The position numbers were made by a program, and so were the translations under genes. A DNA stretch of 41,348 nucleotides. It comes from Candidatus Aegiribacteria sp. (GTDB lineage: Bacteria > Fermentibacterota > Fermentibacteria > Fermentibacterales > JCC-6). Each line of letters opens with the position of its first letter. The stretch's first letter is position 1. The stretch covers positions 1-41,348 of the forward strand of contig JAUVEU010000018.1 in assembly GCA_030594645.1 (NCBI GenBank), read 5' to 3'. Shown here piece after piece: positions 69-7,803 of this stretch. The notes under the pieces were generated by a model. It did no database searches. It saw only the letters and a program-made list of their open reading frames with translations, and was not told where the DNA came from.

Positions 69-1286
69 TTATTCAGATGCCAGCAGGCTGTCTATTACTT
101 CTGTTAGTGTTAAGCCGAGGTCAGAGCTGGATCCCACTTGAGCGAAAGCAATATTCCCTTCCTGATCGATAACATAGAGCGTCGGGATTCCAGATACTTT
201 GTATTCTTCTGCGACAGCATCACCTTCGAGAAGAAGGCCGTATGTGAAGGCGTTCTCCTGCATGAAAGCAGCAGCATCACCGGATTCCCACACATTAACT
301 CCAAAGATCATTACAGGCTGATCCGCATATTTCTCATGAAGGGATTGAATATCCGGCATCACAACCTTGCATGGGCCGCACCAGGTTGCCCAGAAATCAA
401 TAACGACAACATTCCCTCTTAACGATTCGAGTGAAACCATATTGCCATCGCTGTCAGAGAGATTCCATTCAGGGGCAGGTGTTCCGGTCGTCAGGAAAGC
501 GCTGTAATTTTCTACTTCAAGTTCTGCAGGCGGAACAAGGGTGAACATGGAATCCGGAAGATCCGGAGCGGTTTCGAGGTTATAGACTTCCAGTATGACT
601 GAAGCCGGGTTTCCATCCTGACCTGTTGTCATCCTTTCAACACGTCTGGGAAGATGATCGGTAACGCCAAGAGACCATCTTGCCTGCTGTCCTCTGGCAT
701 ATGTAACCAGATAAGTATTACAGTCTTCAGAACCAATAGAATCTACGCCTTCGAATACGATGGATTGTGACGCAATCTCATCGGCGAATGGATCGCTGAG
801 GAAGTACTCGTTCATTATGGCGTAACTTGCATGCCGGAGCAGATCTCTTCCGCCCTCTTCCAGAGAACTCTTACGGAAGACACCGTCCAGCTCGTCATAG
901 AAATACACTGAATCAGTTCCCGATGCGAGCGTAAGAGACAGTTCTATATCATCTTCAATATCAGGCGTAGTGTCCTGGCCGATTTCAGCAAACAGGAGCA
1001 ATTTTTCTTCTCCGTAAGATTTTCCTGAAATATTGCCAACCAGCATGGGGGCTTCAGCGTATGCACCTGTACCAAACACTTTGAAAGTGTAAGAGCAGGC
1101 TTCAAGAGCTTCTGAAGCGCTGTCAGCAAGGATGAAATCCTCCTGATTTGCCGATGGCTGCGAGACTGCTGCATCGACATCCTGAGCCCCTGCAGGCAGC
1201 TCAGTTTCAGCCTCCCCGCATGAGCTGACGGTCAGCATCAAAGACATTATCGAAACGGACAGTGCAATTATTTTCCAGAGTGACAT
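69..1286 (-). CDS. TlpA/ResA-type thioredoxin-fold lipoprotein with an N-terminal LolA-like region
   Basis: Probable membrane-anchored thiol-disulfide oxidoreductase. The ATG at 1286 is chosen because a GGAG ribosome site precedes it and it gives a lipoprotein signal: Lys, a hydrophobic run, then a Val-Ser-Ser-Cys lipobox (Cys23). Residues about 60-260 form a beta-rich region resembling LolA/DUF2092-type outer-membrane sorting domains. Residues about 270-405 are a TlpA-like thioredoxin domain with the active-site motif WCGPC (302-306) and the cis-proline in IPTL (367-370). Proteins of this build usually reduce or isomerise disulfides outside the cytoplasm, often serving cytochrome c maturation or oxidative-stress repair. 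It is the second gene of an operon, 10 nt after the desulfurase gene. The redox role is secure; the substrate is unknown. Confidence 0.9.
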   Translation of the reverse strand: MSLWKIIALSVSIMSLMLTVSSCGEAETELPAGAQDVDAAVSQPSANQEDFILADSASEALEACSYTFKVFGTGAYAEAPMLVGNISGKSYGEEKLLLFAEIGQDTTPDIEDDIELSLTLASGTDSVYFYDELDGVFRKSSLEEGGRDLLRHASYAIMNEYFLSDPFADEIASQSIVFEGVDSIGSEDCNTYLVTYARGQQARWSLGVTDHLPRRVERMTTGQDGNPASVILEVYNLETAPDLPDSMFTLVPPAELEVENYSAFLTTGTPAPEWNLSDSDGNMVSLESLRGNVVVIDFWATWCGPCKVVMPDIQSLHEKYADQPVMIFGVNVWESGDAAAFMQENAFTYGLLLEGDAVAEEYKVSGIPTLYVIDQEGNIAFAQVGSSSDLGLTLTEVIDSLLASE

Positions 1287-1296
1287 TCTATCTCCT

Positions 1297-2688
1297 TCAC
1301 ATTTCAATCTCATAGGGATCCCAGAAAGGTTTGTAATCATCAATAAAGTTTTTCGGTACAAATTCTCCGGTTTTAGGAATCTGATAATAATCACCGTGAT
1401 ATTCACCGTTCTTAATCATGTTAAGCGCTTCCATGAGTCGATCAACGTCCTCAGTGTTACTGTAACATCCGAAACTCATTCTGACCATGCCCGGCATTCT
1501 GGATTTATCCCCCTTTTTGAACTGATCCTGCCAGCTCATGATTTCACTCTTGTCGAGTTTGAGAATCTTTACCACATAGGGATGAGCACAGAAACAACCG
1601 TTTCTAACACCTACTCCGGCTTCGTAACCGGCAATCGCAGCTAGAAGCGCATGATCAGTACCCTCAAGATTGAACGGTATCACGCCTACTTTTTCATGTG
1701 CCTTTGCAGGATCGGTTTCCCCGTACACATGTATACCGGGCATATCGCCAAGCTTCTGCAGCGCGTATGCAGTCAATATTCTTTCATGCTCTGCGATTGT
1801 ATCCAATCCCTTGTCCATCAGAGTTTTTGCTGCAACAGCCATCGCAATCGCTCCCATCACATTAGGACTGCCTGCTTCATCCCTGTCCGGCATTCCAGCC
1901 CAGTATACTTCGTCGGGAGTGACCATATCAACAGTCCCTCCCCCGCTGTAGTCAGGACCACTGCTGAGAAACTCCTGTTTGGGACCGATAAGCGCCCCCG
2001 TTCCGTAAGGGGCGTACATCTTGTGACCTGCAATTACAAGGAAATCCAAGTGTTCCGGATCATCATCGGATTTCATATCTATCCGCCTGTGCGGAGCAAG
2101 CTGGGCGGCATCAACCATTATTCTCGCTCCAGCTTCATGCGCTTTCATTGCAAGACGGTATATTGGTTGTATGTAACCCGTTACGTTTGAAGCACCAGTT
2201 ACTGTCACAAGGGCTGTTTTCCCAGCGTTCTCTCTTAGAAGCATATCGAAATGTTCTTCGTCGAAGCGTCCATCATCAGTTACTCTGACATGCAGTGTCC
2301 TGAAGTGATCGCGCCATGGCAGGTCGTTTGAGTGATGTTCCATGCATGTGGATATCACTACCGAATCCTCCGGTATATTTATCCTGTGTGAAAGCTTGTT
2401 GATGGCTTCTGTGGCATTCTTCACAAAAATGACTGTATTCAGTTCAGTATTCACTCCAACAAATTCAGCGATTATCTCATGGGCGCGATCGTATGCGTCA
2501 GTACAAAGCCTTGATTTGAATCCGGTTCCACGATGAACACTGGAGTACAATGGAGCGAGTTCCGTGATGGCGTCCACAACCTTCACAAGCGGAGGTGTAC
2601 TGGCTGCATTATCAAGATTCACGTAACGAACCATGCTTCCGTCCAGAAGCGGAACTTTCACGTCAAGACCGTATATACAATCACGCAT
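1297..2688 (-). CDS. Class-V aminotransferase, cysteine desulfurase family (SufS/CsdA-like)
   Basis: PLP enzyme of 463 aa expected to take sulfur from cysteine and hand it on as a persulfide for Fe-S or other sulfur transfer; group II members can also act on selenocysteine. The PLP-binding lysine is K223 in an AGHK motif, with the pyridine-ring aspartate in VDAAQ (D193). The catalytic cysteine region reads NGCFCAHP (C365, C367), with C367 aligning to the SufS active-site loop. A C-terminal extension of about 30 residues beyond the usual fold ends in a Pro/Trp-rich tail. It starts at an ATG with a weak ribosome site and is followed by the TlpA-like gene. No sufBCD genes are nearby, so its exact acceptor cannot be assigned. 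Confidence 0.88.
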   Translation of the reverse strand: MRDCIYGLDVKVPLLDGSMVRYVNLDNAASTPPLVKVVDAITELAPLYSSVHRGTGFKSRLCTDAYDRAHEIIAEFVGVNTELNTVIFVKNATEAINKLSHRINIPEDSVVISTCMEHHSNDLPWRDHFRTLHVRVTDDGRFDEEHFDMLLRENAGKTALVTVTGASNVTGYIQPIYRLAMKAHEAGARIMVDAAQLAPHRRIDMKSDDDPEHLDFLVIAGHKMYAPYGTGALIGPKQEFLSSGPDYSGGGTVDMVTPDEVYWAGMPDRDEAGSPNVMGAIAMAVAAKTLMDKGLDTIAEHERILTAYALQKLGDMPGIHVYGETDPAKAHEKVGVIPFNLEGTDHALLAAIAGYEAGVGVRNGCFCAHPYVVKILKLDKSEIMSWQDQFKKGDKSRMPGMVRMSFGCYSNTEDVDRLMEALNMIKNGEYHGDYYQIPKTGEFVPKNFIDDYKPFWDPYEIEM

Positions 2689-2782: not shown

Positions 2783-3547
2783 CTATTCTGTAATATCAAT
2801 ACTGCAGATGATACCCTCCTGGTTATTACTGACCCAGAGGTTCCCTTCAGTATCAATTGTGATTCCGGTTGCTGATGATACTATATCTCCACTAATGCTG
2901 GAAACCATTCGTCCCGATGAATTATAGCAGCGAACAGGTATCTCCGAATCGTCTGTTGCCACCCATATCAGGCCTTCCGAATCCCTGGCTATATCTCTTG
3001 TTCTGCTGTTATTCCCGAATCTGGTAGAATCGTTCCGTCCATGCACGCCCGGCAGTGAGTATCTGTAGGTTCTGTTCTGTTCTCGTGAAGAGAGGTAGAG
3101 ACAATCCATATGAGCTGTGAGTCCCGTCACCGACGAGACAGGGTTCCCTCAACCGCCACACATTCTTGTCGATCCCTTATTAAGACCATCCAGAGTGTAC
3201 TGATAAACGTACCCGTTCGTGCCGTAATCCCAGAATCCCACAAGCAGAACATTGTATTCCTCACTGAAAGCAAGACCTGTAGCTCGGAGATTCGCCGAAT
3301 GGCTGACTGAAAAGGAATCAACAATATCACCTGTTGATGTATCAATACTGAAAACCATATTGGAGGAAGCGTCAACTGCCCAAAGTAAACCGGCTCCCCA
3401 GGCCAGACCGCTGATCTCATCACCTGGAGACACAATTGTGCTGGTCGTCTGGATTTCAGGAACATTTTCATCTGATTCACCTGAATTGCCGGTGCAGGCG
3501 TTGAAAAGCAGCGTCGGAATGATAATAAGAGAAAAATGCATCTTCAT
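2783..3547 (-). CDS. Small beta-propeller (NHL/SMP-30-like) lipoprotein with an in-frame TGA: candidate selenoprotein or nonsense-interrupted gene
   Basis: One continuous reading frame of 254 codons is crossed by a single TGA at 3151-3149 (codon 133). The ATG at 3547 is preceded by GGAGG at 5-nt spacing and starts a signal peptide with an atypical lipobox (Leu-Phe-Asn-Ala-Cys). Both halves carry the same propeller blade pattern, with repeats such as ISGLAW...LWAVD, ATGLAF...LLVGF, VTGLTA...LYLSS, RDIARD...IWVAT and ATGITI...LWVSN. The blades run through the TGA without a shift, so the downstream part still looks like protein. The codons before the TGA spell Cys-Gly-Gly, so decoding would give a CxxU motif (Cys130, Sec133). 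A GGU-loop hairpin follows at SECIS-like distance. A point nonsense mutation or a sequence error would look the same. Restart at the GTG at 3130 is unlikely because no ribosome site precedes it. Confidence 0.7.
3121..3139 (-). promoter_or_regulatory. Candidate bacterial SECIS hairpin after the in-frame TGA
   Basis: On the minus strand, GUCUCGUC (3139-3132) pairs with GACGGGAC (3128-3121) through seven Watson-Crick pairs and one U-G pair, closing a GGU triloop (3131-3129). Seventeen nucleotides separate the TGA from the loop. As I recall the bacterial SECIS consensus, the spacing is 16-37 nt and a G is needed in the first two loop positions; both are met. No SelB or tRNA-Sec gene is in the window to support it, and a chance hairpin cannot be excluded. 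Confidence 0.35.
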
Positions 3548-5661: not shown

Positions 5662-6375
5662 TTACTGAAGAAACATCTCCAGAGCAGCTTCGAGTTCCGC
5701 GGGGTTGACCCATGTATCGAAGCATGGTCCGTGACGCCATTCATTGAGAACCCCTATTGTTGTAACCGGGTGAACATCAAGGATTCCAAGAGAAAGATCC
5801 ACAGGACAGGCGACAGCAACAATAAGTGAAGGCTTTATCCGCTCTACTATCCTTCTTGCGGAAGTACCTCCAGAAGCAATGGCGAAATGGGTATTGAATC
5901 TGCTTCTGATTTCAAGCAGATCTCCAATTGGACACCTGCCGCATCTCTCACAGGATTCAGGATTGAATGTCAGCCTGTGAGAACACTCATGATTCTGCAG
6001 GCAGTGAGGAACCAGAATAAGGGTTTCTTCTCCCTGGAATTTCCTTGAGCAGTCGGAAACGGCTTTTCGGTTGTTCATCGTGATTACCATCTTCTCAGGC
6101 GTATGAGTACCCATTGAAAGAACAGGCTGCATCATCTTCAATGTCCAGAATGAAACCCTCAGTATGAAAGGATGCCTGATTATTCCTCTTCCATATAGCA
6201 GACCGGTGACCTGAACAGCGAGAAGAATTGTCAGAGCTGAGAAAAGTGACCACAGGAAGCCCGTTCCGGCGACAAGCAGAACCAGAAACACAATCGCAGA
6301 CGGAGCGATCGAGAAAAGAAGCAAACCACTCTGAAACAGAGTATTTATCTTACTTTCATCGATCAAGTTTATCAC
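5662..6375 (-). CDS. DUF116 family membrane protein with cysteine clusters
   Basis: Protein of about 237 aa. Residues about 15-65 form two membrane helices. The rest is the DUF116 domain, with conserved cysteines in HCLQNHEC and CERCGRCPIGD and a later GPCFDTWV; the pattern suggests metal or Fe-S binding, but no activity is established for the family. It follows fmt and overlaps its end by 20 nt, and def-fmt-DUF116 linkage is familiar from other bacteria, which hints at a link to translation initiation. The longest frame starts at a GTG (6375). A TTG at 6366 is a good alternative because AGGTGA lies just upstream of it. Confidence 0.85.
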   Translation of the reverse strand: MINLIDESKINTLFQSGLLLFSIAPSAIVFLVLLVAGTGFLWSLFSALTILLAVQVTGLLYGRGIIRHPFILRVSFWTLKMMQPVLSMGTHTPEKMVITMNNRKAVSDCSRKFQGEETLILVPHCLQNHECSHRLTFNPESCERCGRCPIGDLLEIRSRFNTHFAIASGGTSARRIVERIKPSLIVAVACPVDLSLGILDVHPVTTIGVLNEWRHGPCFDTWVNPAELEAALEMFLQ

Positions 6376-7273
6376 CTGTTCTCATTGAAGTTCCCCTGAG
6401 ATAATCCGCCGTGTCCATGATTCGCTTCGAAGCCGGCTGCAAAGTCAGTATTCTAAGGCTCCCCTCGCCACAGCCGATAAAAAGAGTATTTTCCTCTATC
6501 GTAATTTCTCCTGGTGCCGATTCCATCGAAACCGGTATAACTTTGATCAGCTTGATCATATTTCCGAGATGCTCAGTTCTGGCCCCCGGAAACGGCTGAA
6601 AAGCCCTTACCTGCCGTTCGAGTTGTTCAGCAGACATGCTCCAGTCCAGCCATGTTTCAGCTGATGATATTTTTTCTGCGTAAACGGTCTTGCCTTTTTG
6701 AGGTTCGGGAATAATAGAACCTGCAGCATATCTTTCAATAACAGCCTGCATATTCGCGGCAGCAATATTTGAAAGCCTTTCCTCCAGCAGTCCCGTCGTG
6801 TCATCCGGCATGATTCTCTCTCTGAAACTCTCGAGAAGCGGCCCTGTATCCCATCCGCTGTCTGTCAACATGAATGAGACTCCGGTTTCATCTTCTCCAT
6901 CAATTATCGCCCTTGCTACAGGAGCAGCTCCTCTGTAGGCCGGCAGGAGTGAAGGGTGGATGTTGACCACTCCAAGTGGTGCTGATTCAAGAAGCTTGCG
7001 TGGAAGCCAGGCTCCATACGCGGCAGAAACCATCACGTCAGGTTCCAGTGCATGTAGATAACTGATTACATCATTGGTCAGCTTATCAGGCTGCAGCAGT
7101 TCAAGTTTGTGCGCTACAGCATAATCCGCTACAGGAGGATTCCTTGGTTTTCTTCCTCTTCCGGCTCCTCTTGGTGGTCTGGTTACAACAAGAACCAATT
7201 CATGAACTGATTCCATAAGCGATTTGAGCGGGGGCAGCGCAAACGATGAAGTACCAAGAAATATGACTCTCAT
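6356..7273 (-). CDS. fmt: Methionyl-tRNA formyltransferase
   Basis: Transfers a formyl group from 10-formyl-tetrahydrofolate to initiator Met-tRNA. At 305 aa it is close to the usual length. The N-terminal Rossmann domain opens with VIFLGTSSFALP. The catalytic triad of the formyltransferase family is visible as N104 and H106 (in NIHPSLLPAYRG) and D142 (in DSGWDTGP). The C-terminal OB-fold region (about 205-300), used to grip tRNA, is present. Its ATG overlaps the stop of def by one base (TGATG), so the two are translationally coupled, matching their consecutive roles in adding and removing the formyl group. Confidence 0.96.
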   Translation of the reverse strand: MRVIFLGTSSFALPPLKSLMESVHELVLVVTRPPRGAGRGRKPRNPPVADYAVAHKLELLQPDKLTNDVISYLHALEPDVMVSAAYGAWLPRKLLESAPLGVVNIHPSLLPAYRGAAPVARAIIDGEDETGVSFMLTDSGWDTGPLLESFRERIMPDDTTGLLEERLSNIAAANMQAVIERYAAGSIIPEPQKGKTVYAEKISSAETWLDWSMSAEQLERQVRAFQPFPGARTEHLGNMIKLIKVIPVSMESAPGEITIEENTLFIGCGEGSLRILTLQPASKRIMDTADYLRGTSMRTGDKLDR

Positions 7274-7803
7274 CAGAGAATCCTTTTTCCGCTCCCGTAT
7301 TCATCTTTTATCTCAGAAAGCCGCTTTCTGATGAGCCGTTTTTTGATGGGGCTGAGTATGTCAATAAAGAGTATGCCCTCGAGATGGTCGTATTCGTGCT
7401 GGACAGCACGTGCGGCGTAATCATCAAGTTCAAGTGAAAATGATTTGCCATCCTGATCAAGAGCGGTGAGGTTTACATGAGAGGGCCGTTTCACCAGTTC
7501 AAATATCCCTGGGATGCTCAGGCAGCCTTCCTCGTCCTTCAACAAAGTACCGGACATCTTGATTGTTGGATTGATAAAGACACTATGTCCGCTCAGGGCA
7601 AGCTCTTCCGGGTTGAGTATGAACAATCTGACGTTCTCTCCGGATTGAGGTGCCGCTAAACCAAGACCGTTTTCCGTATAAAGGATTCTTCTCATATCAT
7701 TTATCAGAATCTCTATAAAATCCTGCTCGGTGGAGCAGTCAAGTTCCCTGGATTGTTTTCGGAGAATCTCAGAGCCGAAATACTCCAATGATCTGAATTG
7801 CAT
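7273..7803 (-). CDS. def: Peptide deformylase
   Basis: Removes the N-formyl group from nascent proteins. All three signature motifs are present: GLGLAAPQ (46-53), EEGCLS (91-96, metal ligand C94) and HEYDH (136-140, metal ligands H136 and H140, catalytic E137). Length (176 aa) is normal. It lies directly upstream of fmt and is separated from yajC by a 99-nt gap with a strong hairpin. No strong ribosome site precedes the ATG. Confidence 0.96.
   Translation of the reverse strand: MQFRSLEYFGSEILRKQSRELDCSTEQDFIEILINDMRRILYTENGLGLAAPQSGENVRLFILNPEELALSGHSVFINPTIKMSGTLLKDEEGCLSIPGIFELVKRPSHVNLTALDQDGKSFSLELDDYAARAVQHEYDHLEGILFIDILSPIKKRLIRKRLSEIKDEYGSGKRIL

Follow-up and report, generated by a model that had tools for sequence, protein, structure and literature searches.

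Does the single TGA codon inside a beta-propeller gene of Candidatus Aegiribacteria (Fermentibacterota) encode selenocysteine (Sec), and what might such a residue do in the protein? The window analysed here, a stretch of 41,348 nucleotides, is contig C65 of a 3.07-Mb MAG (G000), and the gene lies on its minus strand at 2783..3547. Its frame runs from ATG to TAG over 254 residues, counting the TGA as read through. This TGA, the only one in frame, occupies positions 3151-3149 and corresponds to residue 133; reading it as Sec gives Cys130-Gly-Gly-Sec133, as the initial annotation had proposed, with the Cys130 codon at 3158..3160 (minus) and the cysteine invariant in a 52-sequence alignment. Without Sec decoding, the UGA would leave a 132-residue product. 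The ribosome site claimed earlier is also there, a Shine-Dalgarno-like GGAGG at 3557-3553, 5 nt ahead of the ATG, whereas the promoter that had been described as intact is not convincing. An N-terminal signal can be recognized, though the lipobox-like motif that it carries, LLFNAC, is imperfect. From comparison of sequences we consider Sec decoding of this codon near certain and Sec insertion into an exported propeller very probable, and the gene is almost certainly one of more than 100 that specify related Sec-containing surface proteins.

The fold is a prediction, and a consistent one. AlphaFold models of the window protein (pLDDT 87.7) and of a paralogue with a CU motif from the same genome (pLDDT 91.0) each contain 20 strands, five blades in the window protein, and in both paralogues the four-stranded blades are predicted to be ringed as a beta-propeller. 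The Sec position falls, in both models, in an inter-blade loop that leads from the last (outer) strand of the preceding blade to the first (inner) strand of the following one. The closest solved folds found by Foldseek include the five-bladed glutaminyl cyclases 3mbr, 3nol and 2faw (TM-score about 0.68/0.73), which have only 11–16% identity to the protein and no Sec; the likeness is one of fold, and no cyclase activity is claimed. Blade repeats are recognized by the NHL, virginiamycin B lyase, Reg_prop and Pfam DUF6923 models with weak to moderate scores that mostly lie below the cut-offs, the Reg_prop match to the window protein (27 bits) being above it. We know of no Sec in any of these families. 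Three of the four C-terminally extended paralogues tested exceed the cut-off for the TIGR04183 tail of type IX-sorted surface proteins and the fourth falls just below it, which indicates that the family is probably secreted. The window protein is without this sorting tail and has its lipobox-like signal instead, so that both kinds of sequence signal point to probable export.

In the mechanism that we propose, SelB and Sec-tRNA, recruited by a SECIS hairpin at 3139-3121, would serve the ribosome at the UGA at 3151-3149, and insertion of Sec would yield the full-length, exported five-bladed propeller. Sec and the invariant Cys, which form a CGGU motif here and CU in the majority of other paralogue groups, would thereby be placed in the inter-blade loop. 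There they probably act at the cell surface as a thiol-selenol redox pair that forms a selenenylsulfide, re-reduced perhaps by a thioredoxin-like partner. The Cys-Sec spacing varies (CU, CxxU and perhaps CxxxU) yet could always close a selenenylsulfide, which suggests a redox site, and from the motif and its context we infer such a role with a little more confidence than doubt. That the loop instead binds or sequesters a soft metal or metalloid (Hg, As, Cu or Zn) without redox catalysis, Sec still being inserted, we judge unlikely. In its favour, CU and CxxU occur also in the metal-related selenoproteins SaoL, HgcA and MbdU, and predicted Sec-ligand contacts are mostly with metals according to the same review (PMC13188914). 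The differing distance from Cys to Sec among paralogues would be compatible with it as well. Metal binding is less readily reconciled with the columns that are invariant besides Cys and Sec (Gly, Pro, Leu, Ile, Asp and Trp), which are mostly blade-structure residues, or with the neighbouring genes that could be identified, none of which is a metal-resistance gene.

For the redox reading, the neighbourhood offers a putative partner. The gene at 69..1406 (minus) specifies an exported protein whose C-terminal domain is thioredoxin/TlpA-ResA-like (WCGPC; PF00578, 82 bits) and which is a possible electron donor; a TlpA/ResA-like gene is next in order also at the loci L009, L150 and L151. Directly downstream of the propeller gene, at 1297..2688 (minus), lies a class-V aminotransferase of the cysteine desulfurase (SufS-like) superfamily (PF00266, 257 bits). 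The initial annotation had drawn attention to this gene as a SufS-like enzyme from a family that can also release selenium; the superfamily holds, whereas the scores fall below the cut-offs both for SufS (TIGR01979, 266 bits against 475) and for selenocysteine lyase (SclA, 110 against 525). A part of this neighbour in selenium release is thus no more than a hint from genomic context. Orthologues have, where the contig reaches, pepF (oligoendopeptidase F) upstream and the SufS-like gene after the propeller, and this order, conserved within two genera, argues only weakly for a common function. Elsewhere in the window (5662-7803), peptide deformylase-like and methionyl-tRNA formyltransferase-like genes adjoin a gene for an uncharacterized Cys-rich protein of 237 aa with no NCBIfam match.

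The search for selA, selB, selC and selD that had been suggested for this genome shows it to be equipped for Sec insertion. G000 contains selA (506 bits) and selB (341 bits) adjoining on contig C88 and selD (315 bits) on contig C62, all above the NCBIfam cut-offs. Its SelD (L133:91-1017) is itself a Sec form, with an in-frame TGA at GPCAGUAGK, the known Sec site of this protein; the same holds in most relatives. A pattern search located selC in 35 of 44 relatives. ARAGORN, applied to six loci that include one from outside the order, confirmed a tRNA-Sec with anticodon UCA at each. In G000 itself selC was not seen, an Rfam search there returning other tRNAs only. The selC flank of a relative (G017) matches the extreme end of G000 contig C105, which stops at 47521 with about 550 bases still missing before the tRNA, and we therefore consider an assembly gap the likely cause. 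The only genome of the order without matches to selA, full selB, selD and selC (G012, 73% complete) is also without a TGA propeller copy. UGA is an ordinary stop in the neighbouring genes, which rules out reassignment of the genetic code.

These observations leave very little room for a near-cognate or suppressor tRNA that reads the UGA without selenium, the hairpin merely promoting readthrough. Sequence data cannot by themselves tell which residue is inserted, and to that extent the proposal has a foothold; it is made most improbable by the Sec machinery of this genome and the Sec form of its SelD, by UGA acting elsewhere as a stop, by the invariant Cys beside the site and by a hairpin that fits the bacterial SECIS model.

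This hairpin, GUCUCGUC-GGU-GACGGGAC at 3121..3139 (minus), has an 8-bp stem and a GGU loop that begins 17 nt after the TGA. The claim that it follows the rules for bacterial SECIS elements was correct, as it agrees with the model of PMC13188914. The Rfam model SECIS_1 (RF00031) gave no match here and was also silent in all control genomes. With a folding energy of −13 kcal/mol for 40 nt (z −0.26), the region is ordinary, and we do not count this as evidence. The initial annotation had conceded that one such hairpin can arise by chance. This is right for the loose kind, since 0.7–3% of the window's TGAs are followed by some 8-bp hairpin under loose SECIS rules; a hairpin of precisely this type, with a 3-nt loop starting GG, 8 bp and the correct spacing, follows only one of 1963 TGAs, namely that at 3151-3149. 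By itself the hairpin is thus weak evidence, barely beyond chance; what lifts it above chance is its conservation among homologues, and the argument is a comparative one. G000 alone has three TGA propeller genes with a hairpin, and the paralogue group with the motif DCUGSDLD has a different one, GACCGG-GAGGUAA-CCGGUC, which likewise agrees with the bacterial SECIS model.

Comparison of synonymous sites reveals constraint on the RNA itself. Across 47 genes with the CGGU motif, codons +4 to +9 relative to the TGA (GTC TCG TCG GTG ACG GGA) show zero synonymous variation, as does codon −1 (GGT), whereas codons −2, +1 and +10 vary freely. The synonymous-site entropy is 0 at codons +4 to +9, whereas conserved codons elsewhere have approximately 0.5–2 bits (p 2e-4). 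Frozen sites between variable flanks indicate a constraint that acts on the RNA and is bounded by the hairpin. Among 14 distinct stem variants, of which that at L070 (GUCCCUUG-GGC-CAAGGGAC) is an example, 93.8% of cells are paired, and in divergent paralogues six of the eight stem pairs have changed on both sides, so that compensatory substitutions preserve the stem. The covariation score, in counts that include shared ancestry, is 0.563; shuffles give 0.150, with 0 of 500 reaching the observed value, and slid registers no more than 0.152.

The TGA itself is widespread. In a search of 60 genomes, homologues were found in every genome of the order, mostly with exactly one TGA. Seventy-six aligned rows, drawn from dozens of genomes, have the TGA in one shared column behind an invariant Cys; some of these rows are one gene fetched twice, leaving 71 distinct proteins, and most homologues come from one phylum and are not independent of each other. 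A profile of 52 sequences run against 385 genomes returned about 120 best matches that all have an in-frame TGA, for which presence in the frame was scored, the column itself being established for the 76 rows. The Cys-Sec motifs are CGGU, CU and CSGU: MCGGUGNPVSSVT is found in 47 genes, and the others read DCUGSDLDREV, YCUG, LCUGQN, FCUGSYLP and, once, CSGU. The base preceding the UGA is T at 72 of 73 sites. Sequencing error is ruled out by the occurrence of the TGA in independent genomes.

Selection on the protein continues beyond the TGA. In ten of 11 close pairs, dN/dS is 0.14–0.23 before the TGA and 0.09–0.28 after it, and in the remaining pair (L049/L050) it is 0.42 after the TGA; the low values downstream indicate that the protein is translated and constrained past this codon. 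The blades that had been recognized on both sides of the TGA are thus borne out by the Reg_prop match, by the five-bladed model and by selection that is alike on the two sides. It also follows that the UGA is scarcely likely to be a regulatory switch with the truncated half-propeller as the main product and full length rare. Sec insertion is often inefficient and the hairpin would in that case serve as a selenium-dependent gate, but fewer than three blades could not close a propeller, and the truncated product would be without blades that are equally conserved. The rival that the initial annotation had kept, a plain nonsense mutation in what would be a decaying gene, is refuted for practical purposes, and with it an assembly error, by the identical TGA column of the 76 rows and by purifying selection downstream of it, even though the family does have decayed copies (a deletion at L010 in G007 and a fragment at L104).

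A Cys in place of Sec was not found in any homologue among the 385 genomes (E ≤ 1e-10). Homologues of this kind are customary in selenoprotein prediction and not strictly defining. The initial annotation had envisaged TGA or Cys in this column, with the hairpin conserved; the TGA column is indeed kept together with the hairpin, no Cys was found in it, and relatives have either the TGA or lack the whole loop. The TGA-less homologues (L143-L145 and L085-L095) are less similar and without the Cys/Sec loop. A FastTree phylogeny of 83 domains places the CGGU genes in a single clade (support 0.88), nested in a larger one of 64 members that are all Sec forms (support 0.998). The TGA-less homologues make up two further groups with long branches, and support at the root and the deep nodes is too low to tell gain of Sec from loss. 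A genome of another bacterial lineage (G099), which has selA, has a 944-aa frame (L146:2387-5220) in which HCPGGU occupies the homologous position; an 8-bp hairpin follows, its GUC loop 25 nt after the UGA. This one gene represents a possible Sec propeller outside the phylum.

The expectation that a propeller-type selenoprotein would be new was sound. The 2026 inventory of PMC13188914, whose table takes in the families described by Haft and colleagues, lists 119 prokaryotic selenoprotein families and subfamilies, with no propeller among them; NCBIfam (June 2026) has no model for the family, and text searches of the literature returned nothing relevant on propeller selenoproteins or on selenoproteins under the truncated term Fermentibacter. 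We therefore rate this as a new selenoprotein family on a fold previously unreported with Sec, as far as could be found. It resembles the known CxxU and CU selenoproteins (glycine reductase A, SelW-like proteins and HgcA; PMC13188914) in a UGA-coded Sec near a Cys and a bacterial SECIS right behind the UGA, and differs from them in its repeat fold, its probable secretion and the lack of any Cys homologue found. We advance more tentatively a wider reading, in which secreted five-bladed Sec propellers have expanded across the phylum, with Sec obligatory, spacing of CU, CxxU or CxxxU, and a deeply diverged member outside the phylum (G099).

According to PMC12013277, all known selenoproteins now seem to possess Cys homologues, and the method used there may, on its own account, miss selenoproteins that do not. 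If Sec is obligatory in the propellers, they would be a counterexample to this statement and a selenoprotein class invisible to prediction methods based on Cys/Sec pairs. Since no Cys form was found, the question of why some proteins retain Sec and never revert to Cys becomes testable. The family adds to the latest selenoproteome inventory a fold absent from it, in a little-studied anaerobic phylum, and suggests selenium chemistry at the cell surface of anaerobes. One genome can carry several of these genes, likely all truncated or missed by standard annotation.

Three individual copies have features of their own. On contig C3 of G000 (L046:7319-8802), a Sec propeller paralogue is followed directly by a tRNA that overlaps a recombinase-like gene, an arrangement that suggests an integrated mobile element. 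An orthologue in G007 (L010:6001-6460, also L025) has an in-frame deletion directly after the UGA that takes out the hairpin together with the greater part of the C-terminal half, and its UGA may now be a stop. A fragmentary duplicate (L104; G016 C33:1437-1631) lies upstream of an intact propeller gene and is the only copy with GGG, rather than GGT or TGT, ahead of the TGA.
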